Part shown: piece by piece, positions 46,202-60,582 of the stretch
How positions within the stretch are numbered: position 1 is the stretch's first letter
Layout of the letters: each line of letters starts with the position of its first letter
Assembly: GCA_948468385.1 (NCBI GenBank)
Contig: CAOKHZ010000010.1
Location: forward strand, 1-64,000
DNA from: an uncultured Faecalicatena sp.
Lineage (GTDB): Bacteria; Bacillota; Clostridia; Lachnospirales; Lachnospiraceae
DNA length: 64,000 nt
Direction: 5' to 3'
Translations under genes and position numbers: made by a program
Notes under the pieces: model-generated
Told to the model about the DNA's origin: nothing
What the model saw: only the letters and a program-made list of their open reading frames with translations
Database searches by the model: none

Positions 46202-46948
46202 CTATATGCACACCACCGGGCAGAAACATCCTCCGCCGAAGCAATTACAAAGCGTCATCATCAAGCAGAGCTGGGAACATTGCCTGCTGTCGCCGACCGG
46301 GAAGCCATACCCGTACATCCCCTGCCGATTTTGGTAGACACTGCCGCCGCCCTGCAGACGGTTTAACAAAATCTGATACTGGTAGTTATTCGGCTCCAAG
46401 CGAACCGCTTCTTTGGCGTGCTCCAACGCCGTCACGTTATTTCCCACGCCGGAATTGGCCGAGGCACTGTAAAAATACCACAACGCGCCCCGTTCTTTTA
46501 TCCCGTCCAACACGTTCAATGCTTCCTTGTAGCGGCCTCCCTGAATATAATTTGCCGCCGCCCTAAGATGCATGTCCGTCTCGCTTTCCGCGCCGGACGC
46601 GCCCCTTGCGCGCCCTCCAAACGACCCAAAGCTTCCAAACGGCCCGAAGCCGCCAAAACCGCCGAACGAACCAAACGGGCCATATCCGCCTTCGTCCCCA
46701 TGGCCCTGGCCGTAAGAACCACCGCTTCCGCCATAGCCCGATTCCGACGAATATCCCCGCTCCCTATCGTCCATGATTTTCTGATACGCCTGCTGTATTT
46801 CCTTAAACTTCGCCTCCGCCTCGTCCTTGAGCGGATTGTTAATATTTGCATCAGGATGGTATTTCCTACTCAGTGACCGGTACGCCTTCTTGATTTCCTC
46901 GTCCGAGGCGTTCCTGGCCACGCCCAATATCTGATATGGATCTTGCAT
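46202..46948 (-). CDS. J-domain protein with Gly-rich middle
   Basis: Protein of 248 residues. The N-terminal J domain (1-68) has the HPD motif in [10 protein letters not shown] Gly/Phe/Ser-rich stretch (about 75-115) is followed by a TPR-like helical part (about 120-195) and a Cys-rich hydrophobic tail ([14 protein letters not shown]). It lacks the DnaJ zinc and substrate domains, so it is a specialised DnaK co-chaperone. Confidence 0.88.
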
Positions 46949-47027
46949 ACTTCTCTCCTATTGTTTTCATCTTACTACGTCTTGCGCTCCCGCACTATTA
47001 CCTATTTGTGTACTCTATCTTCTTCAT

Positions 47028-47435
47028 TCAACTCTTCTTGATAAACTTCGTCTGACACTTCGGGCATCGGATTTCAATCCGCCCTTTGCCGCGCGGGACA
47101 CGAATCTTCTGCTGACACCCCGGGCAACGATAAATATGATGCGTCTTAAGCTGTCCCAGCAAATTCATCTGCCGTGCAAAAAGGGCACGAATCTTCGCCG
47201 TCTTCGTTAAAAACACTTGATTTTCCGCATATCGCTTGCTAATATTCCGAGAAAACCGGCGAAAATCATCATAAACCCATACCGCAATTCCAAAAATCCA
47301 GAAAAAATGCGATAGTCCAATCGGCAGAACCACGATTGACAATGCCAGCAAAATAACCCCCGTCAGCCATAGGAAACGGCCAAACTCATCCAAACCGTAT
47401 CTTCCCTGCATAAACCGCTCATATCTTTCTCTCAT
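47028..47435 (-). CDS. Two-TM protein with C-terminal zinc ribbon
   Basis: Protein of 135 residues from the ATG at 47435, with GAGG five bases upstream. Two hydrophobic segments at about 20-60 are followed by a basic linker, then CPGC and CPKC flanking a ribbon with KIRVPRGKG. Function is unknown; it may pair with the J-domain gene downstream. Confidence 0.7.
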   Translation of the reverse strand: MRERYERFMQGRYGLDEFGRFLWLTGVILLALSIVVLPIGLSHFFWIFGIAVWVYDDFRRFSRNISKRYAENQVFLTKTAKIRALFARQMNLLGQLKTHHIYRCPGCQQKIRVPRGKGRIEIRCPKCQTKFIKKS

Positions 47436-47603
47436 AAAAACCTCGCCCCTTTTCCAGTTTCGAAGCATACCTGTTTGCTAACGCAACCATCACCATGAGT
47501 AAAAATCGCTTGCTTCGTGTTCCTCCTATTTTCCTCTTAATTTCCGACTTTGTCAATAAACTGGCAATAAAATTCATAAAATATACAAAATCAGGGTTAT
47601 ATT

Positions 47604-51669: not shown

Positions 51670-52821
51670 TTAGCGTATTTGAATTTTTATTATCGGACGC
51701 ACGCCGATTGTATCTGTAGTGGCATCCACGCTACCGACATCGTAAAAAAAGTACTGACATTCTCCATTGTTATCCTCAATCCACCAATAACACCCTGCCG
51801 TGCCGTCTTCCGTCATCACGCCCTTTGCCTTAGCATAAGGCGTCGCCTCGCATATTGCTCCGCCGTCTAAGGAAAAGATGCTGCGGGCATCGTGCAAATT
51901 TAGCAAATACACTTTGGGAGCCCCTTCTTCTTGTGTCTGTATCATCCGCGACCCCTCCCATTCATTAAACGCCTCGTTATAAAACGAATCATTCAACCAC
52001 GCATTCAAAGAACAGTCCTCCCAATCCGTATCTGTCCCATCCACGTCATACGGCTGGCAGTCGAGAACGTATTTGCTTGCCAAATACATGCTGTCCCCGC
52101 CTCTCCAATACACAATCCATTCAATGTCTTCCTTGCCATTCTGCACGTTATTGTCCTGCTCATACCTGCCGAACTTGATACAGTCTCCCACTTGTGCCAC
52201 CGACGGGTAGTCCTTCAGAATGTCCTCTATCATTTTCTTGCTGTCATCATCATCCAGCTCTTTAAATTTCACATAAGCCTCTTCATAATTCCCCATCTTG
52301 TACAATCTCATGGCAACATTATATGGCTTATTTGCCCACATCACCCAATTCCCCAGTGCCGGCCCCACCAGAGCCGATATCACGACAGTGATGATAAGCT
52401 TTCGATTTTTTCGTTTTTGCCTCTCCTTCGCTTCCTTCTTTAATTCGTCAATCCTTTGAATGCAATACGCCCGTCTTTCATTTGCATCCCGCCACCCGGG
52501 AATCATCCCGAGCAATTCCGCCGCCCGCTCATATGCAGGTATGCTCACTGTCGACATACAATTCACGGCCGCCGCATAAGTCTCTTCCCGCCACGCCATT
52601 TCACTTTGTTGACGATATAGCACTACCTTTTCACGGCATATCCGTGCCAGATTTTCAGAATCTTCATACGGATTGATGGATTCAAACATTCGTGCCGCCT
52701 CTTCATACTGCTCCGGCATTATCGCCCGCCGCATCAAATCAACCGCGGCGGTGTATGCCATCCGCTTTCGCTCCTGCTCGTCGCCTCCGCCCATATAGGA
52801 GCCGTATTTCATTTCTTCCAC
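51670..52821 (-). CDS. TPR-TM-DUF6273 protein, TIR-less derivative
   Basis: Protein of 383 residues: helical repeats (about 15-140), a TM segment (about 143-163), then a DUF6273-like domain with FGRYEQDNN, EDIEWIVYW, LDCQPYD, SLNAWLND and GVRPIIKI. It aligns along its length with the last 380 residues of the TIR protein at 53010-55367. The start is GTG with GGAGG seven bases upstream; that GTG corresponds to a Val codon inside the intact paralog, so the gene is a truncated derivative. The DUF6273 domain is probably extracellular. Its stop codon coincides with a MITE target site. Confidence 0.78.
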   Translation of the reverse strand: MEEMKYGSYMGGGDEQERKRMAYTAAVDLMRRAIMPEQYEEAARMFESINPYEDSENLARICREKVVLYRQQSEMAWREETYAAAVNCMSTVSIPAYERAAELLGMIPGWRDANERRAYCIQRIDELKKEAKERQKRKNRKLIITVVISALVGPALGNWVMWANKPYNVAMRLYKMGNYEEAYVKFKELDDDDSKKMIEDILKDYPSVAQVGDCIKFGRYEQDNNVQNGKEDIEWIVYWRGGDSMYLASKYVLDCQPYDVDGTDTDWEDCSLNAWLNDSFYNEAFNEWEGSRMIQTQEEGAPKVYLLNLHDARSIFSLDGGAICEATPYAKAKGVMTEDGTAGCYWWIEDNNGECQYFFYDVGSVDATTDTIGVRPIIKIQIR

Positions 52822-52835
52822 TCTTCATCCTCCTC

Positions 52836-52958
52836 GTATCAACAAAGCACGATGAACCAATAGACTTCTGCATCCGTCTTGTCCTCGCTCAAAATCTGCC
52901 CATAAATCCCCATCGCTAATTTCCAACTCGCCCCGATCATTTTACATTTGTAGACAAA
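52836..52958 (-). pseudogene. N-terminal relic of the TIR-type gene
   Basis: The minus strand reads YKCKM, then, after a short deletion, AMGIYGQILSEDKTDAEVYW and FIVLC, then a stop. This is the zinc ribbon and TPR start of the TIR genes at 55367 and 58340. The relic runs directly into the start of the 383-residue frame, so that frame is what remains after loss of the TIR half. Confidence 0.78.
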
Positions 52959-53009
52959 CCTCCCTCTCCCCAACTATTCTCCTTCCTACATACCGCTTTT
53001 TCCAGTCAA

Positions 53010-55367
53010 TTATTTTCCAAAATTGCTAATTCTTATAGCAGGTCGCACGCCAATATAATCTGCAGTTCCAACAACGCTATATTCATCATCAAAAGGCATA
53101 AACCGACAGTCGCCCCGATCATCTACAATCCACCATCGGTACGCTCCCATCTCCTCGTCCAGCCTCAACCCATTTGCCTGCGCATAAGGCGTTGCTTCAC
53201 AGATTTTTTCCTCGCCCGACACAAAGCTCTTGCCAGCATCGAACAAGTTTAATAAAAATATTTTTTCTTCATCATGCCCTAGTATTAATTTCTGCTCCTC
53301 TTCAGTAAATGCCTCGTTAATAAACGTATTATTCAGCCATTGATTAAGAGAACATTTTTCCCACCATATCCTTGTGCTATGCATGTCATACGGCTGACAA
53401 TCAAGGATATCTTTACTCACCAAAAACAGCTCGTTTCCACTTCTCCAATATACCAACCATTCAATGTCTTCCTTGCCGTCTCCCATGTCATTGTTCTGCT
53501 CATATTTACCAAAAGTGATACAATCGCCTACTTGCGCCACTGCTGGATGTTCACTCAAAATATTTTGCGCCATCTCTTCGCTGTTTTTATATGAAAGGCT
53601 TTTGAATGCGACATATGCCTCTTCGTATTTCTCCGCCTCGTACAAGTCCATGGCAGAATTGTATGCGGAAGACAACTTCAACCAAGGTTCCGCCAAAGAC
53701 CACACAGCAATAAACAAAGGGATTGTCAACACGGCCACCGCTACGCCAACATACATTTTGCGTTTCTTCCGCTTTTGTTCCTCCGCCCTCTGCTTTCTAA
53801 GTTCATATAGTTTTTGGCCACAATATTCTCGTTTTTCATCCGCGTCCCTCCAGCCCGGAATAGACCCAAATTTTTCCATCGCCATTTCATACGATGCCAC
53901 ACTCGCCGCAGCCATGTAACTTATACCAGAATCATATATCTGCTCTCTCTCTTTCCTTTCTTTTTCTTCACGATATATCCTTGCTTTTTCGCGGCATTCC
54001 TTTGCCAACTCTTCTGAATCCTCATATGTCCCAATAGTTCCAAACAGTTTTGCCGCCTCCTGATATCCCTCCGCATTTGCCGCACTTCTCATTATACTAA
54101 TTGCAGTACCATAAATTTTCTTTTTTTGCTCTAGCTCATTACGTTCCACAATGTAATTGTTATATCCTACCACTTCCGCAACTAATTTTTCATCCCCGAA
54201 CCGTAGAATTTTCTTGTAATTGCCACTACCGTCAAACGGTTCCGCCAAATCTGCCAGTTCTTCCCGCGTATTCACTTCCAACTCAACCATCAGCTTGCCA
54301 AGATAAGCCTCACCACACTCCGGCTCGATGTCAAGCACCCGTTCACAGTATTCTTCAGCACTTTCGAAATCATCATCTTCCAAAAATAAGAACACCCGCT
54401 TCAGCAAAGATGTAATTTTCACGTCACCGCCAGAATTAACAACCTCCTTCACCACCACCGGCTTTTCCTCTTCCACCTGCGCGATTTTCTTAATTCCCCG
54501 CACCAGATCCTGCATGAAGCCTAGCTTCGACATGTCCTGCGCCTGCAAATGCGAAAATTCCTCCGGCAAGTCATACGGATCCATGTCACGGTAAGCCGGA
54601 ATAAGCATCTTTTTCTCACCATTCCGAATCAATGCAAGATAACGGCTCCACTCATTTTTCACCCATGCAGCCTGAAAATACTCCCCCCTCGTACCAAGAA
54701 CCACCATCACCTTCGCACTGTTCAACGCAGAAAATATGTACGGCTCATAGGCCGTCCCAATCTTATCCTCCAGCGTAATACGTGCATAAAATACCTTGAA
54801 GCCTTCCTCCGTCAATTCATGATACAACTCATTTGCCAAAACCGAGTCCGGCGTCCTGCGGCCGCCATTGTCGCTCTCCTTGTAACAAATGAACACGTCA
54901 AACGGCTCTTCCTGCTGTGAAATGGCCAAAATGCCTTTCTGAATTTTATCAATAACCTTCGCCTGCTCCTCATAGATGGACTTTTGATATCCATCCGCAT
55001 ACTCCAACGCGGACTTGTAGTCCTCGTCCGAAAAAATCGACGCGAACTGGGTACGGTTCACGGTCGGCACGCGCTTATGCGTGGCCGGGTCTTCCACATA
55101 CTCGACCCCGTATCGGCAAAGCACGATGGACCAGTAAGCTTCCGCGTCCGTCTTGTCCTCGCTCAAAATCTGCTCGTAAATACCCATCGCCTTGTCAAAC
55201 TCGTCATTGCGGAAAAAATGATTCGCCCGATCATATAAATTCGCCCGCTTTTCATCGTCAAGCCTCGGCACGGTCTGTTTTGTGCCGCAATATTCGCACA
55301 CCGCAACGCTCTCGCCACCACTGATTTCCAACGCGCCCCCGCACATTTTACATTTGTAAATAGACAT
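53010..55367 (-). CDS. Zinc ribbon-TPR-TIR-TPR-TM-DUF6273 protein
   Basis: Protein of 785 residues. Order: zinc ribbon (CKMC at 6-9, CEYC at 24-27), TPR-like helices (40-150), TIR domain (about 153-260, FDVFICYKESDNGG to AAWVKNEWSRYLAL) with E208 in TAYEPY as the probable NADase glutamate, more TPR-like repeats (320-535), one TM segment (537-557) and DUF6273 (610-783). The ATG at 55367 has GGGAGG eight bases upstream. The TIR side should be cytoplasmic and DUF6273 outside, so the protein could signal across the membrane. Preceded by a promoter shared with the SPFH operon. Bacterial TIR proteins are often NAD-consuming defence effectors, but no phage link is shown here. Confidence 0.88.
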   Translation of the reverse strand: MSIYKCKMCGGALEISGGESVAVCEYCGTKQTVPRLDDEKRANLYDRANHFFRNDEFDKAMGIYEQILSEDKTDAEAYWSIVLCRYGVEYVEDPATHKRVPTVNRTQFASIFSDEDYKSALEYADGYQKSIYEEQAKVIDKIQKGILAISQQEEPFDVFICYKESDNGGRRTPDSVLANELYHELTEEGFKVFYARITLEDKIGTAYEPYIFSALNSAKVMVVLGTRGEYFQAAWVKNEWSRYLALIRNGEKKMLIPAYRDMDPYDLPEEFSHLQAQDMSKLGFMQDLVRGIKKIAQVEEEKPVVVKEVVNSGGDVKITSLLKRVFLFLEDDDFESAEEYCERVLDIEPECGEAYLGKLMVELEVNTREELADLAEPFDGSGNYKKILRFGDEKLVAEVVGYNNYIVERNELEQKKKIYGTAISIMRSAANAEGYQEAAKLFGTIGTYEDSEELAKECREKARIYREEKERKEREQIYDSGISYMAAASVASYEMAMEKFGSIPGWRDADEKREYCGQKLYELRKQRAEEQKRKKRKMYVGVAVAVLTIPLFIAVWSLAEPWLKLSSAYNSAMDLYEAEKYEEAYVAFKSLSYKNSEEMAQNILSEHPAVAQVGDCITFGKYEQNNDMGDGKEDIEWLVYWRSGNELFLVSKDILDCQPYDMHSTRIWWEKCSLNQWLNNTFINEAFTEEEQKLILGHDEEKIFLLNLFDAGKSFVSGEEKICEATPYAQANGLRLDEEMGAYRWWIVDDRGDCRFMPFDDEYSVVGTADYIGVRPAIRISNFGK

Positions 55368-55472
55368 CACAATTCCCTCCCACATCATTTTTCCTTAGTA
55401 AATAGCAATAAACTCTCGAAATCACGCCATCTCTTATAAGCTCAAAACGTATCACCTTTTTCCCTAATATTT

Positions 55473-55514
55473 ATTATATTATAGTCAAAAAACAAAAACA
55501 ATCCTTTTGTCCAA
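55473..55514 (-). promoter_or_regulatory. Promoter of the TIR gene with Spo0A-box-like site
   Basis: Minus-strand TTGTTT, 17 bases, TATAAT. Six bases upstream of the minus-35 lies TGTCCAA on the plus strand (55508-55514), one mismatch from the Spo0A box TGTCGAA. Nearly the same block occurs at 60540-60582. Confidence 0.65.
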
Positions 55515-55526
55515 AAATAGCCGAAT

Positions 55527-55551
55527 CGTTACTATCCAGCGTTACTATCCA
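55527..55551. repeat. Tandem 12-bp repeat
   Basis: CGTTACTATCCA occurs at 55527-55538 and again at 55540-55551. It resembles the dispersed GTTACTATTCA motif at 284, 18557 and 49012. Confidence 0.65.
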
Positions 55552-55590
55552 ATCCGCGCCAGCGCAATGCCAAATGTTAACATCAAATCT

Positions 55591-55625
55591 AAAAAGCCGG
55601 GAATCCAAGCGAACTCCCGGCTTTT
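55591..55625. terminator. Bidirectional terminator after the SDR gene
   Basis: AAAAAGCCGGGA and TCCCGGCTTTT form a stem with A/T flanks on both sides, so it can stop transcription on either strand. Confidence 0.82.
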
Positions 55626-55675
55626 GCTATCACAACAGCAATCTTTACATACACTACGACTTGTTACTACACCCC

Positions 55676-56506
55676 TTACTGTGCCCTATCTTCCATCATG
55701 GCATTCATCGCCGCCACGGAACCACCATCATAAAGCACGTCCACGCCGCAGAGGTAACTGCACTCGTCACTGACCATGAACGCCATCATTTTCGCGATTT
55801 CCTCCGGCTCGCCGAGTCTTCCCATCGCACCCTGCTTCGCAAAGGCCGCCGCCTGCTCCCCTTCGACCTCTCCCATCGGAGTCTTAAACGTTCCCGGGGA
55901 AATGGAAACGACGCGGATGCCTTTCTTACCCAACTTTACGGCTTCCCTTGCCGTATACCATACGACGAAATTCTTTGACATCGTGTAAGCCATGCCCGAA
56001 CGTTGTTCTTCCGGCACGCCCGCGATAATCTGATTTACCGCGCCCTCAAACGCCGCAACATCGGAAAGAGCCATTTTATAAACCTGCTTCGGCACACGAT
56101 CAGCAGGCATCATGTACGCCGACATGGAAGACACATTCAAAATGCAACTTCCGGCTTCCATCACTTCCGCAAACTCTTCATCAATATTGATAGTACCAAC
56201 CGCGTTGATTTTGAAAATCTTCTCTCCATCCGCCATGTGCGGGGACACGCCCGCCGCATGAATCACAGTCTTTACCGTTCCCTGCGAAGCCGCATACGCC
56301 GCCAACTTCTTCATGGACTCACGGTCAGATGCATCGCCCGGATAAGCTTCCGCGTCAATTCCTAAGGCTTTCAACTCTGCAATTGCATTTTCCAACTTGG
56401 AAACCGTACGTCCGACAAGGATGATTTTCTGCTCCTTGCCCAGAATCTTGGCCGTTTCCAATCCCATTCCGCTACCGCCGCCGGTTACAACACAAACATT
56501 TCCCAT
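55676..56506 (-). CDS. SDR-family oxidoreductase
   Basis: Protein of 276 residues, classical short-chain dehydrogenase. Cofactor motif TGGGSGMG near residue 9, a Ser in NVSSMSAYMM and the YTMSK catalytic Tyr/Lys. C-terminal CGVDVLYDGG is typical. I chose the second ATG (56506) since the GAGGT site directly abuts the first. It sits between the two TIR genes but has its own terminator, so a functional link is uncertain. Substrate unknown, perhaps a 3-alpha-hydroxysteroid or sugar alcohol by resemblance only. Confidence 0.88.
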   Translation of the reverse strand: MGNVCVVTGGGSGMGLETAKILGKEQKIILVGRTVSKLENAIAELKALGIDAEAYPGDASDRESMKKLAAYAASQGTVKTVIHAAGVSPHMADGEKIFKINAVGTINIDEEFAEVMEAGSCILNVSSMSAYMMPADRVPKQVYKMALSDVAAFEGAVNQIIAGVPEEQRSGMAYTMSKNFVVWYTAREAVKLGKKGIRVVSISPGTFKTPMGEVEGEQAAAFAKQGAMGRLGEPEEIAKMMAFMVSDECSYLCGVDVLYDGGSVAAMNAMMEDRAQ

Positions 56507-56669
56507 TGCTTTCATACCTCTCTTTTTACTTTTTGATTGGACAATTTTACTTTGTCATTTTTCTAACAATCTATTTATTATTGTAACATTAGATGTATGC
56601 ACATTGCAACCGACAATTTCAATACAGTTGTAGAGATATTCAAAAACTTATATCCCGCATTTATCATTC

Positions 56670-58340
56670 TCATATAAATGATACCAAAACAAAAATCAAC
56701 ACCACTACCACTATTGAAATCAACATAAAAATAACAGGAAACCAATTCTCAAATCTCTGTTCGGCCGCTTCTTTTACTCGCAATGTCTCAAGGCTTTGAC
56801 GACAAGCATTTAACAGTTCATCTGCATCTCTCCAGCCCGGAATGATTTCTAATTGTTTTATGGCCTCCTCACAAGCGTCCGCTCTGTTCTCAGACATTTT
56901 CTTCCTTGCTATGGTATACGCCGTCTCTCTCCAAGCAATTTCCGCTTTTTCATGACATTCTCCGGCCAATGCAACAGCATCCTCATATGTGCTAATAGAC
57001 TCGAACGCTACTGCAGCCTCCTCAAATTTCTTCTGAGTATTCGCCTCCCTCATGATACTAATGGCAGTATCATAAACCTCTTTCTGACGTTCCAACTCAT
57101 TATTCCTGATAATCTGCTCATTGTACGCTTTCACAGTCGCAATTAATTTTGCATTTCCAAAGCGAAGGATTTTCTCATAATTACTGCTATCATCAAACGT
57201 AATACCGTAATCTACAATATCTTCCTGCTTCTCTGCCTCAAGTTCCACCATCAACTTGCCAAGATACGCCTCACCGCATTCCGGGTCCATATCAAGCACC
57301 CTCTCACAATATTCATCCGCGCTTTCAAAATCTCCATCCTCAAGGAATAGAAATACTCGCTTTAATAATGGCTCAATCTCCTGGCTCTTCTTGGATGATT
57401 TAATTTCTTTCCCTTTCTCCTCTGCTCTTGGTCGTTCCTCTTCCCCCGGCTCCGCGATTTTCTTAATTCCCCGCACCAGGTCCTGCATAAAACCCAATTT
57501 CGACATGTCCTGCGCCTGCAAATGGGAAAACTCCTCCGGCAAGTCATACGGATCCATGTCACGGTAAGCAGGAATGAGCATCTTCTTCTCTCCGTTTCGA
57601 ATCAACGCGAGGTAACGGCTCCACTCATTTTTGACCCACGCCGCCTGAAAATATTCCGGCCTCGTACCAAGGACCACCATCACCTTCGCGCTATTTAACG
57701 CGGAAAAGATATACGGTTCATACGCCGTGCCAATCTTGTCCTCCAACGTGATGCGGGAAAAGAACACCTTAAATCCTTCCTCGGTCAACTCATGGTAAAG
57801 CTCGTTGGCCAAAACCGAATCCGGTGTCCTGCGGCCGCCGTTGTCCGTCTCCTTATAGCAAATGAACACGTCAAACGGCTCCTCCTGCTGCGAGATGGCC
57901 AAAATGTCCTTCTGGATTTTGTCAATGATTTTGGCTTGTTCCTCATAAACGGATTTCTGATATCCATCCGCATACTCCAACGCGGACTTGTAGTCCTCAT
58001 CCGAAAAAATTGACGCAAACTGGGTGCGGTTCACGGTCGGCATGCGCTTGTGCGTGGACGGGTCTTCCACGTATTCCACCCCGTATCGGCAAAGCACGAT
58101 GGACCAGTAGGCTTCCGCGTCCGTCCTATCCTCGCTCAAAATCTGCTCGTAAATTCCCATCGCCTTGTCAAACTCATCATTGCGGAAAAAATGATTCGCC
58201 CGGTCATATAAATTCGCTCTCTTTTCGCTATCAAGCCTCGGCACCGTCTGCTTCGTGCCGCAATATTCACACACCGCGACGCTATCACCATCACCGATTT
58301 CCAACGCGCCCCCGCACATTTTACACTTGTAGATAGACAT
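56670..58340 (-). CDS. Zinc ribbon-TPR-TIR-TPR-TM protein without DUF6273
   Basis: Protein of 556 residues. The first 295 residues are nearly identical to the TIR protein at 53010-55367, including the ribbon cysteines, the TIR domain and AYEPY with its glutamate. Differences such as FFSRIT for FYARIT and RPEY for RGEY are few. After an acidic/basic linker (about 300-320) the TPR region diverges, and the protein ends with a C-terminal TM segment (about 535-555), with no DUF6273. GGGAGG lies about nine bases upstream. It is 137 bases after the four-TM gene and probably the third gene of the SPFH operon. Confidence 0.87.
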   Translation of the reverse strand: MSIYKCKMCGGALEIGDGDSVAVCEYCGTKQTVPRLDSEKRANLYDRANHFFRNDEFDKAMGIYEQILSEDRTDAEAYWSIVLCRYGVEYVEDPSTHKRMPTVNRTQFASIFSDEDYKSALEYADGYQKSVYEEQAKIIDKIQKDILAISQQEEPFDVFICYKETDNGGRRTPDSVLANELYHELTEEGFKVFFSRITLEDKIGTAYEPYIFSALNSAKVMVVLGTRPEYFQAAWVKNEWSRYLALIRNGEKKMLIPAYRDMDPYDLPEEFSHLQAQDMSKLGFMQDLVRGIKKIAEPGEEERPRAEEKGKEIKSSKKSQEIEPLLKRVFLFLEDGDFESADEYCERVLDMDPECGEAYLGKLMVELEAEKQEDIVDYGITFDDSSNYEKILRFGNAKLIATVKAYNEQIIRNNELERQKEVYDTAISIMREANTQKKFEEAAVAFESISTYEDAVALAGECHEKAEIAWRETAYTIARKKMSENRADACEEAIKQLEIIPGWRDADELLNACRQSLETLRVKEAAEQRFENWFPVIFMLISIVVVVLIFVLVSFI

Positions 58341-58397
58341 TACAACTTCCTCCCTGCGTTCTTTCCTTTTGTAAATGGGCACTTCCGTAACAGATTT

Positions 58398-58430
58398 ATA
58401 CTCACGACAAATTTTATCTGCCGTGAGTAT
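58398..58430. repeat. Inverted repeat between the four-TM gene and TIR gene
   Basis: ATACTCACG and CGTGAGTAT, perfect 9-bp arms with a 15-base AT-rich loop. No T-run, so readthrough into the TIR gene is possible. Confidence 0.55.
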
Positions 58431-58477
58431 CGCTCCGGTTGTTGCCCGCGAAAATACACTTCCCCTATTTTGACAAC

Positions 58478-59182
58478 TTACACTTTTAGCAACTTACACT
58501 TTTTATTTCTGTCATCAAGCAAAACGACGACTTCCTCGCCTACACTTTTCGCCGTTTCCGCGTCATCAGCCGCAACCGCCTTGCCAAAAACAGAAAAACG
58601 AAGCGTGATCTGCGTTTCCATTTCTGCCAGCGCGTCACTGCTCATCGGGTCTGAATAGCGAACGGCCTCATACACCTTTTTGCATTCCACCTTCACGGCA
58701 TCCGATTTCGCCCGCGCCATCAAAGATTCGGCATCGACCGTCAGCGACTTGACAAACAACGTCTTTTCTTTTACCTTGTCATCGATCTCGCCCACGATTT
58801 CCCCCGCGGCAACGGCCTTTATCACCAAAATGGCATAGAAGCAGAGAAATACAAAGCAAAGAATGAAGCCCAGCCAGGCCGGGAAGCGCGGCACCAGCAT
58901 GCAGACGGTGCCACAGACAAGCGTCAAAACCAGTCCCGTCCAACTGACCTGCAGAAGCGGTATCCTATAAAAAAACTTGTCCAGCCTTTCCGGCTTAAAC
59001 GCATAGGATGATACGCCAAGCTGTACCGCAAAGGCAATCACGATAAAAATATATCCCGGCCAAAATAACCTATCAAACCGCTCCGTACCGGGCACGCGCC
59101 CCGACACCGTAAACGCCACCACATTGAAAATGACGAACAATACGACCCAAGCAGCCAAATAATACTTGAAATTCTTCTTCAT
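58478..59182 (-). CDS. Four-TM protein with C-terminal helical domain
   Basis: Protein of 234 residues. Hydrophobic segments at about 7-27, 42-62, 80-100 and 103-123, then a soluble helical domain with charged residues. It starts three bases after the SPFH gene stop, clearly in one operon. I do not recognise the family. As SPFH proteins commonly pair with a membrane partner, it may anchor or regulate the SPFH protein. Confidence 0.78.
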   Translation of the reverse strand: MKKNFKYYLAAWVVLFVIFNVVAFTVSGRVPGTERFDRLFWPGYIFIVIAFAVQLGVSSYAFKPERLDKFFYRIPLLQVSWTGLVLTLVCGTVCMLVPRFPAWLGFILCFVFLCFYAILVIKAVAAGEIVGEIDDKVKEKTLFVKSLTVDAESLMARAKSDAVKVECKKVYEAVRYSDPMSSDALAEMETQITLRFSVFGKAVAADDAETAKSVGEEVVVLLDDRNKKCKLLKV

Positions 59183-59185
59183 CTT

Positions 59186-60475
59186 TTAGCCCTCCCTCTT
59201 CGTGCCACATTTCGGGCAAAATTTCCCGGCACGCTCAAATTTGTAGCCACAATTCCGACAAACGCCGCTATTTACCACCGGTTCTCCGCATTCCTCGCAA
59301 AAGGAAGCACCCGCCGCCAGCTTCGCGCCACAGTTTTCGCAAAAGCCACCCTCCTGCTGCCCCGCCGCTGGAACTTGCCCTGATGCCATCCCTACTGTCA
59401 TCGGATTTTGACCCGACATGTCCGTCCGCCCTCCGGGCATCACCAAATTTTGTTCCGCCGCAAAATTCTGTCCGGGCGGCACGGGAGCCTGCGCGGTATT
59501 TATGGCGTCGCTCATCATGCCGCCGACCATGCCGCCAACGGCACCGCCGACTCCCGCCATGGTTCCAAAACCGACACCCATGTTCGTAAACTGACCAACC
59601 GCTTCATTTTCCGCCACCCGTTCGGCAACGTCAAAACCTCTCTCCTGCTGGTAGCTGTAGCCCTCCTGCGCGCGCTTGGCAGCAATGGCCTTGGACTCGA
59701 TCACCACCTTCTGCGCCTCCGTCTGGGCATAAATGAGATCCGTCTGTTGGCGCAGCTTTGCCTCTGCAATATCCGCATACTGGCGGAAATGCAGTTCCTT
59801 GAACTTCTCATATTGCTTATCACCGTCAGGCCGCAAAACATTTGTGACAAAAAAACGCTCCAAAGAAACGCCGTAATCCGCAAAATCCGCAGTCAAAAGA
59901 CCCTTCACGGAATCGGAAAACAACGTAAGGTTTTCATCAATCTCAAAAATATTAATCGCATTATTCTTCATAACCTGCGCGATGTATGTCTTCACCCTCG
60001 TCATGAGGAAGGCGCGGAAAAAGCCGACCAGTTTCTGCTGGTTCAACAAATTCTCCGTACCGACCAGCTTTAAAAGCAACTTACGGCTATCTTCGACGCG
60101 AAGGCTCATCTCACCGGACGCGCCAATCGAAATCGGGAATCCATATGTAGGCTCGATGTACTGCACCTTGCTGTCCGTCCCCCACTTGATTGACATTTGC
60201 TCCGTCTTATTGATAAAATAGACCTCACAATGAAACGGAGTGTCACCGCCGGTTACACGGTTCAATAATTTCCCCAGCATCGGCACGTTCTGTGTCTCCA
60301 ACGTGTATCTGCCCGGGCCGAACAAGTCAAGAGCCTGCCCGTTTAGAAAGAAAATGGCCTCCTGGTTTTCATGCACGATCAATTGTGTCAGACTGTTGAA
60401 GTCCTCCAATGGATGCTTCCAGATAAATGTAGTGTTGTCTCCCTCATACTTGATAATCTCTGCAATCTTCGCCAC
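59186..60475 (-). CDS. SPFH-domain protein with C-terminal double zinc ribbon
   Basis: Protein of 429 residues. SPFH/band-7 domain at about 25-235 (VHENQEAIFFLNGQALDLFGPGRY without the run-on), coiled coil about 235-285, a Gly/Met-rich hydrophobic patch (about 300-325) that may insert in membrane, a Pro/Gln linker and two zinc ribbons (CENC...CEEC and CRNC...CPKC). This matches the YdjI-type or virion-core-like SPFH proteins. The start is GTG with AAGGAGG seven bases upstream. It heads the SPFH, four-TM, TIR operon under the promoter at 60540. Confidence 0.88.
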   Translation of the reverse strand: MAKIAEIIKYEGDNTTFIWKHPLEDFNSLTQLIVHENQEAIFFLNGQALDLFGPGRYTLETQNVPMLGKLLNRVTGGDTPFHCEVYFINKTEQMSIKWGTDSKVQYIEPTYGFPISIGASGEMSLRVEDSRKLLLKLVGTENLLNQQKLVGFFRAFLMTRVKTYIAQVMKNNAINIFEIDENLTLFSDSVKGLLTADFADYGVSLERFFVTNVLRPDGDKQYEKFKELHFRQYADIAEAKLRQQTDLIYAQTEAQKVVIESKAIAAKRAQEGYSYQQERGFDVAERVAENEAVGQFTNMGVGFGTMAGVGGAVGGMVGGMMSDAINTAQAPVPPGQNFAAEQNLVMPGGRTDMSGQNPMTVGMASGQVPAAGQQEGGFCENCGAKLAAGASFCEECGEPVVNSGVCRNCGYKFERAGKFCPKCGTKREG

Positions 60476-60539
60476 GACACTTCCTCCTTTTCAAACACTG
60501 TAATTCTCACCCTTGAAAGACGTGATGTATCTGCTTTTA

Positions 60540-60582
60540 ATTATATTATAGCGTAAAACTAAAAACAATCCCCTTTGTCGAA
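60540..60582 (-). promoter_or_regulatory. Promoter of the SPFH operon with Spo0A-box-like site
   Basis: Minus-strand TTGTTT, 17 bases, TATAAT. A perfect TGTCGAA (Spo0A-box core) is at 60576-60582, seven bases upstream of the minus-35. The block is almost the same as that before the TIR gene (55473-55514). Confidence 0.68.

Follow-up and report, generated by a model that had tools for sequence, protein, structure and literature searches.

A possible membrane-anchored TIR module on an SPFH scaffold in an uncultured Faecalicatena genome

We analyzed a 64,000-nucleotide stretch of DNA from an uncultured Faecalicatena sp. of the Lachnospiraceae (GenBank assembly GCA_948468385.1, contig CAOKHZ010000010.1, positions 1 to 64,000; hereafter the window), focusing on a cluster that encodes an SPFH protein, a protein with four transmembrane (TM) helices and several related TIR-type proteins. 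On the minus strand, from 60475 down to 51670, the genes run SPFH, four-TM, C, an SDR-family oxidoreductase, B and A (Table 1). Every gene that a first-pass annotation of this DNA had named was found where it had been placed; the start given there for the SPFH gene, 60582, had to be moved to 60475, where the open reading frame (ORF) as listed begins.

Table 1. Genes and related features of the cluster in the window
Feature	Position	Strand	Basis
SPFH (Band_7_1) protein, C-terminal double zinc ribbon, 429 amino acids (aa), proposed scaffold	59186..60475	-	ORF, Pfam
Four-TM protein, 234 aa, helical C-terminal part, proposed SPFH membrane anchor	58478..59182	-	ORF, AlphaFold
Gene C: zinc ribbon-TPR-TIR-TPR-TM, 556 aa from likely ATG, no ectodomain	56670..58340	-	
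SDR-family oxidoreductase between genes C and B, possible cargo	55676..56515	-	Pfam adh_short_C2 3e-30
Gene B: zinc ribbon-TPR-TIR (154-300, Glu239)-TPR-TM (540-558)-DUF6273 ectodomain, 785 aa	53010..55367	-	
Division of gene B: constant over codons 1-360, variable over codons 361-785			
Gene A: truncated, related to B, 383 aa, with TPR, TM and DUF6273 but no TIR	51670..52821	-	
Relic of a TIR gene, covering part of its N-terminal TPR and interrupted by an in-frame TGA, immediately upstream of gene A	52833..52922	-	

The four-TM gene starts 3 bp past the SPFH stop codon. A Pfam scan of ten window genes identified Band_7_1 (2.9e-38) and DZR (4e-9) in the SPFH protein, TIR_2 in B (9.2e-12) and C (1.7e-12) along with TPR repeats, and DUF6273 in A (8.2e-8) and B (1.3e-11). 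The four-TM protein had no Pfam match, and its AlphaFold model, which was all helical with a mean predicted local distance difference test score of 82.4, had no PDB match with Foldseek at E ≤ 0.001; a PDB sequence search with the SPFH and four-TM proteins gave no useful match. B and C, whose likely starts (55367 and 58340) are the ATG codons before IYKCKMC, are 74% identical over 552 aligned residues, which bears out the earlier suggestion of one design behind the three genes, and the Pfam domains agree with its description of B as complete and of C as lacking DUF6273. Gene A, 47% identical to B at the amino acid level, does lack TIR as had been said, but this is not a simple lack: by its sequence, A is a truncated copy of a TIR gene, because the relic upstream of it still encodes part of the N-terminal TPR with a stop inside. 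The assembly (4.25 Mb, 94.4% complete) held no copies beyond A, B, C and the relic. The three TIR-type genes are thus related, as the first-pass annotation had it, but are better read as a receptor (B), an ectodomain-less membrane TIR protein (C) and a truncated copy (A). The SDR gene is loosely spaced in the window and may be unrelated cargo.

The SPFH, four-TM and TIR genes recur together in relatives. One genome per species was scanned with a search that used the pattern AAWVKNEW, yielding 372 related stretches from 386 candidates, the best 80 of which gave 79 loci. Their record titles name Clostridia, Lachnospiraceae, Oscillospiraceae, Ruminococcaceae, Erysipelotrichaceae and similar groups, and many are gut and rumen records. 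Neighbors were counted in the 59 loci where 5 kb or more precede the TIR gene, within 6 kb and with tblastn at 1e-4. An SPFH gene was present on the same strand in 42 of these loci, a four-TM gene in 39 and both in 38, and an SPFH match on the opposite strand in none of the 59. The earlier idea of a joint system had been staked on such co-occurrence of SPFH and TIR genes elsewhere, and the 38 loci speak for it. Spacing within SPFH/four-TM pairs was at most 20 bp, often with overlap, in 44 of 46, and the SPFH gene came after the TIR gene in 4 of the 79 loci. Thirty-six of 40 SPFH proteins were aligned with the window protein (alignment A3). The window's family was sampled with 200 genomes, of which 27 had a match to the TIR protein at 1e-3 and 15 (own genome included) at 1e-40; among the matches listed, at least 9 of the 15 had an SPFH gene within 3 kb of the TIR gene, and at least one genome without such a neighbor (G163) was cut by a contig end. 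The four-TM gene was found in 17 of the 200, with at least 14, among the matches listed, lying within 2 kb of an SPFH match. Within the genus, 2 of 12 genomes, own included, had a match, and the distribution of the TIR family is patchy; a search of viral contigs gave one locus. At the level of sequence, these loci establish a tight SPFH/four-TM pair with at least one TIR protein behind it; in relatives, a swappable gene of putative effector type often comes in between.

The position of that gene, between the four-TM gene and the following TIR gene, is referred to here as the slot. Both flanking genes were visible in 46 loci, the window included. The slot held an unrelated ORF of at least 110 residues in 22 of them and was empty in 21 (including the window); the remaining three held a zinc-ribbon relative of the TIR proteins (two loci) or an 81-residue ORF (one locus). 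Slot genes look like part of the operon, because every gap was 33 bp or less in 17 of the 22 occupied slots. ORFs of at least 110 residues in slots or between TIR genes numbered 45 and fell into 30 groups without mutual similarity (blastp, 1e-4). The Pfam scan of relatives covered 39 of the 50 ORFs between module genes plus L124:1462, which lies just before an array, for 40 proteins; the window SDR and L119:5412 were scanned separately, and nine ORFs were left out. Twenty-three of the 40 match families known from phage defense, toxin-antitoxin or conflict loci: HEPN_RiboL-PSP (two), HEPN pEK499_p136 (four, under the curated cut-off), SIR2_2 (four, three of them under the cut-off), DUF2971 (three), DUF4365 (two), FRG (two) and one each of TIR, RES, HipA_C, ParE, DUF4760 and RVT_1. 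The RVT_1 protein is RT_UG26 according to PADLOC (1.2e-139). SIR2-type genes adjoin TIR genes in several relatives, and the SIR2-matching L124:7771 groups with proteins from three further loci: L038 and L103, which matched nothing in Pfam, and L106, whose MobC_2 match was weak. PADLOC returned 47 families in 32 slot ORFs, several of them redundant models of one protein, versus 24 in 59 flank ORFs, a comparison that agrees with this pattern but is no formal test and carries no weight here; the flank matches were mainly RmrA, Control_protein, PDC-S09 and helix-turn-helix models. The flank set (A5) was 59 of 60 sampled ORFs, since L061:11943 belongs to the TIR family and was removed.

Two kinds of layout within slots and arrays were also recorded. 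In L123 (G180 contig 9, 2936-19054), FRG, RT_UG26 and RES genes lie between TIR copies in a compact, defense-like island. TIR-family zinc-ribbon relatives without a clear TIR occupy the slot or array in L067 (8342-9973), L100 (9451-9975) and L082 (3784-5709), and the start of the L067 protein resembles a zinc-ribbon protein beside the TIR-less pair of L114.

The TIR fold was confirmed, with PDB matches that include SPARTA and SARM1; when the TIR profile was compared with PDB sequences at 0.01, the sole match was a Toll-like receptor TIR. The putative catalytic glutamate, E239 of B, had been expected to be conserved in relatives, and it is glutamate in 112 of 115 proteins, with a gap in two and lysine in one; together with the positions around it, this residue belongs to the most conserved part of the alignment. 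E239 is likened to SARM1 E642 and RUN1 E100 by order along the chain only, not residue by residue. In the zinc ribbon, C9, C24 and C27 are invariant and C6 is nearly so across 60 aligned proteins. Alignment A1 comprised 59 of 64 complete relatives and the window protein, and alignment A7 comprised 25 hand-picked relatives and the window protein. We infer that the TIR domains of B and C cleave NAD or make a nucleotide signal.

Charge bias placed the TIR domain inside in 84 of 85 single-TM proteins, a predicted topology (N terminus inside, C terminus outside) that supports the earlier placement of DUF6273 outside the membrane. Most of the TIR proteins carry TIR and TPRs before one predicted TM helix and an exchangeable domain after it. 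That domain is mostly DUF6273 (C-type-lectin-like), which was found in 55 of 84 C-terminal pieces, followed by RCC1 (12) and LRR_5 (4), and TIR arrays contain paralogues with different C-terminal halves. Such lectin-like, RCC1 and LRR_5 domains fit carbohydrate or protein ligands on cells and, together with the paralogue arrays and the many gut and rumen records, would suit a contact or kin-recognition module that uses the same outside-in TIR signaling against neighboring bacteria (toxins, bacteriocins, predators) and not phage. We consider this unlikely given the RT_UG26, SIR2, HEPN and TIR genes in slots, families that we take to be typical of phage defense.

A further observation concerns L107 (10001-12588), where, read by eye, a TIR-TM gene is followed by a BspA-like leucine-rich-repeat (LRR) stretch in another frame, as if a TIR-TM-LRR gene had lost frame; the ORF at L107:11458 is also LRR-like by eye.

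In part of the comparisons made, the two halves of the TIR proteins differ in similarity. The closest relative, L035 (also G210), a Lachnospiraceae metagenome assembly from the same genus, has the order SPFH, four-TM, ParE-like, SDR, TIR, with the SDR gene between the four-TM and TIR genes. Between the window and L035, the SPFH proteins are 100% identical over 356 residues (98% in DNA), the four-TM genes 93% identical in DNA and the SDR genes 92% in DNA and 97% in amino acids. Over their first 1080 bases, gene B and the L035 TIR gene differ by 36 mismatches (96.7% identity); beyond codon 360, DNA identity falls abruptly to about 58% (48-67% per 60-codon block). At third codon positions, identity is 77-97% across the twelve 30-codon bins that precede codon 361 and 37-63% in the scorable bins after codon 360. 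The 308 bp leading up to the TIR gene show about 95% identity if a single 13-base gap is set aside. L035 may be a metagenome chimaera, but the reading frame is open across the change point, and pairs within arrays on single contigs repeat the pattern. B and C, for example, are 93-97% identical in protein to residue 300, 70% over residues 301-360 and 32-50% thereafter, and in 18 of 32 same-locus paralogue pairs, third-position identity was lower by 15 points or more over residues 411-545 than over residues 1-300, with the limit that pairs from one array are not independent. The two halves share their nearest neighbor in 21 of 111 proteins, the ectodomain being the most discordant; we do not take this test as proof of recombination, given that its own control weakens it: when two quarters of the constant half are compared in this way, agreement is found in only 29 of 110. 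It is common for outer domains to evolve faster, and that low agreement inside the constant half, like the absence of a drop in 14 of the 32 same-locus pairs (some of which, in L039, L052 and L076, are reversed), would fit faster protein evolution of the outer half without any exchange. A rate difference at the protein level alone is nevertheless unlikely because synonymous identity changes so sharply past codon 360, and the nearly identical 5' flanking DNA and open frame also argue against this explanation, which we regard as highly improbable.

Diversification by a diversity-generating retroelement (DGR) was considered but gained no support from the genes covered: the Pfam scan found no reverse transcriptase among the ten window genes, a difference from the DGR-diversified phage C-type-lectin proteins (DUF6273 proteins, tentaclins), and the only one noticed in a relative array, that of L123, is RT_UG26 and not a DGR reverse transcriptase. 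DGR-type repeats were compared in L123 only.

Our preferred reading, to which we assign about an even chance, is that the cluster is a membrane-anchored, outward-sensing TIR conflict module of immune type on an SPFH scaffold. The four-TM protein would anchor the SPFH assembly under the membrane, by analogy with YdjG/H for YdjI, and the zinc ribbons and TPRs would dock the TIR proteins at this assembly. Binding of an outside ligand (a phage or rival-cell factor, or damaged envelope) by the ectodomain would cluster the TIR domains, and the NAD cleavage or nucleotide signal of the clustered TIRs would then either harm the attacked cell or drive the slot effector. Within the window, the receptor role would fall to B and that of a membrane-bound amplifier to C, which has no ectodomain. 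Recombination would take place between conserved TIR halves and in this way renew the sensing half. A fuller version, in which outward TIR receptor arrays with recombinationally exchanged ectodomains, an SPFH/four-TM scaffold and slot-loaded defense effectors (SIR2, HEPN, TIR, RES, reverse transcriptase) form a surface-receptor immune system, is a tentative proposal that we consider possible.

Several observations weigh against this reading, including the pairs without a third-position drop and the low control agreement described above. Neither an SPFH nor a four-TM gene lay nearby in 16 of the 59 loci, and collections of 72,556 plasmids and 50,697 phages yielded no match at 1e-10. The search pattern AAWVKNEW favors the glutamate, yet all 15 of the 15 family-sample proteins also have it. 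No TM helix was predicted in 15 of 91 complete relatives. The slot of the window itself is empty, its only extra gene being the loosely spaced SDR, and 12 of the 40 slot-type proteins had no Pfam match at 0.01, with another 5 matching non-defense families. In PADLOC 2.0.0, B and C matched only weakly and in part (best the candidate TIR model PDC-S66, 25.5-25.8 bits), and both fell under every cut-off of NCBIfam release 20.0 (ThcB4, 29 bits versus 220). Finally, some SPFH/four-TM pairs have no TIR gene and instead neighbor zinc-ribbon, AAA or ADP-ribosylglycohydrolase genes, and because of this the pair may have a general envelope role. Such pairs, one of which adjoins an AAA ATPase that matches MIT and Vps4_C, lend some weight to an envelope-stress or membrane-repair system, with SPFH/four-TM as a Psp-like platform and the TIR protein as a non-immune, non-catalytic receptor that reports cell-wall damage through TIR-TIR scaffolding. 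In B. subtilis, the SPFH protein YdjI is reported to require YdjG/H to reach the membrane (PMC8581546) and to recruit PspA (PMC8581546, PMC11237479). We find this alternative doubtful: many slot genes are of defense and toxin types, the putative catalytic glutamate and its surroundings are strongly conserved, the distribution is patchy and the C-terminal domains are variable.

Two TIR-less pairs have neighborhoods of their own. L116 (G152 contig 11, 6497-11124), from the window's family, has the pair, two uncharacterised genes and then the AAA ATPase whose Pfam matches are MIT and Vps4_C; the set may be ESCRT-like. In L118 (G104 contig 1, 9459-12135), the pair is followed by an ADP-ribosylglycohydrolase (PF03747, 1.8e-34), a possible NAD/ADP-ribose link.

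To our knowledge, the known bacterial TIR systems sense invaders inside the cell. The module proposed here shares the TIR fold of NAD-processing TIRs with Thoeris and SPARTA TIR-APAZ, and the adjoining SIR2-type genes are a further likeness; unlike in those systems, a TM helix links TIR to a fused domain that probably lies outside, and SPFH and four-TM genes go with it. In the PADLOC scan of six window proteins, ThsB reached 13.3 bits (E 0.0081) for C with no match for B, and ThsA matched none of the six. The likeness to PspA-YdjGHI lies in an SPFH protein with a C-terminal zinc ribbon that is encoded beside an integral membrane protein, and Band_7_1 is also present in a B. subtilis control genome; in contrast, the ten window genes scanned with Pfam had no PspA/ESCRT-III or TPM-domain (YdjH) match, and the client here appears to be a TIR receptor. 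As in Toll-like receptors, the predicted topology puts a ligand-type domain outside, a single TM helix between and TIR inside, and LRR_5 occurs among the C-terminal pieces. The polarity is reversed, however, with TIR at the N terminus, and the ectodomains are mostly lectin-like (DUF6273 in the window), the TIR is likely enzymatic and the scaffold is SPFH; we do not claim descent. In open-access full text, no paper was found that describes TIR together with SPFH or DUF6273, bioRxiv and most subscription literature being outside that scope. Two candidate sources were set aside: in the passages of PMC11237479 that were consulted, "Tir" is the CesT/Tir chaperone and not a TIR domain, and in those of PMC7159879, SPFH occurs in the reference list only. 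The single parts are known, and their combination may be an undescribed module. If the fuller version of the preferred reading is true, it would be a case of TIR immunity in bacteria with a trigger recognized outside the cell, a functional analogue of Toll-like receptors. A recurrent operon that couples TIR to an exchangeable outside domain and an SPFH scaffold would also assign a function to many TIR, DUF6273 and SPFH genes that now lack annotation, and slot occupants could guide the discovery of new effectors.

Elsewhere in the window genome (G000), two further Band_7_1 SPFH genes lie at contig 1:27922 and contig 8:86682; the former has zinc-ribbon neighbors, with no TIR-family match found around it. 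The DNA between the TIR genes and two downstream genes at 46202-47468 of the window gave no blastn match to L035 at 1e-5. Those two genes, a DnaJ-TPR gene and a TM/zinc-ribbon gene, have counterparts in the same order in L035 (12563-13793).

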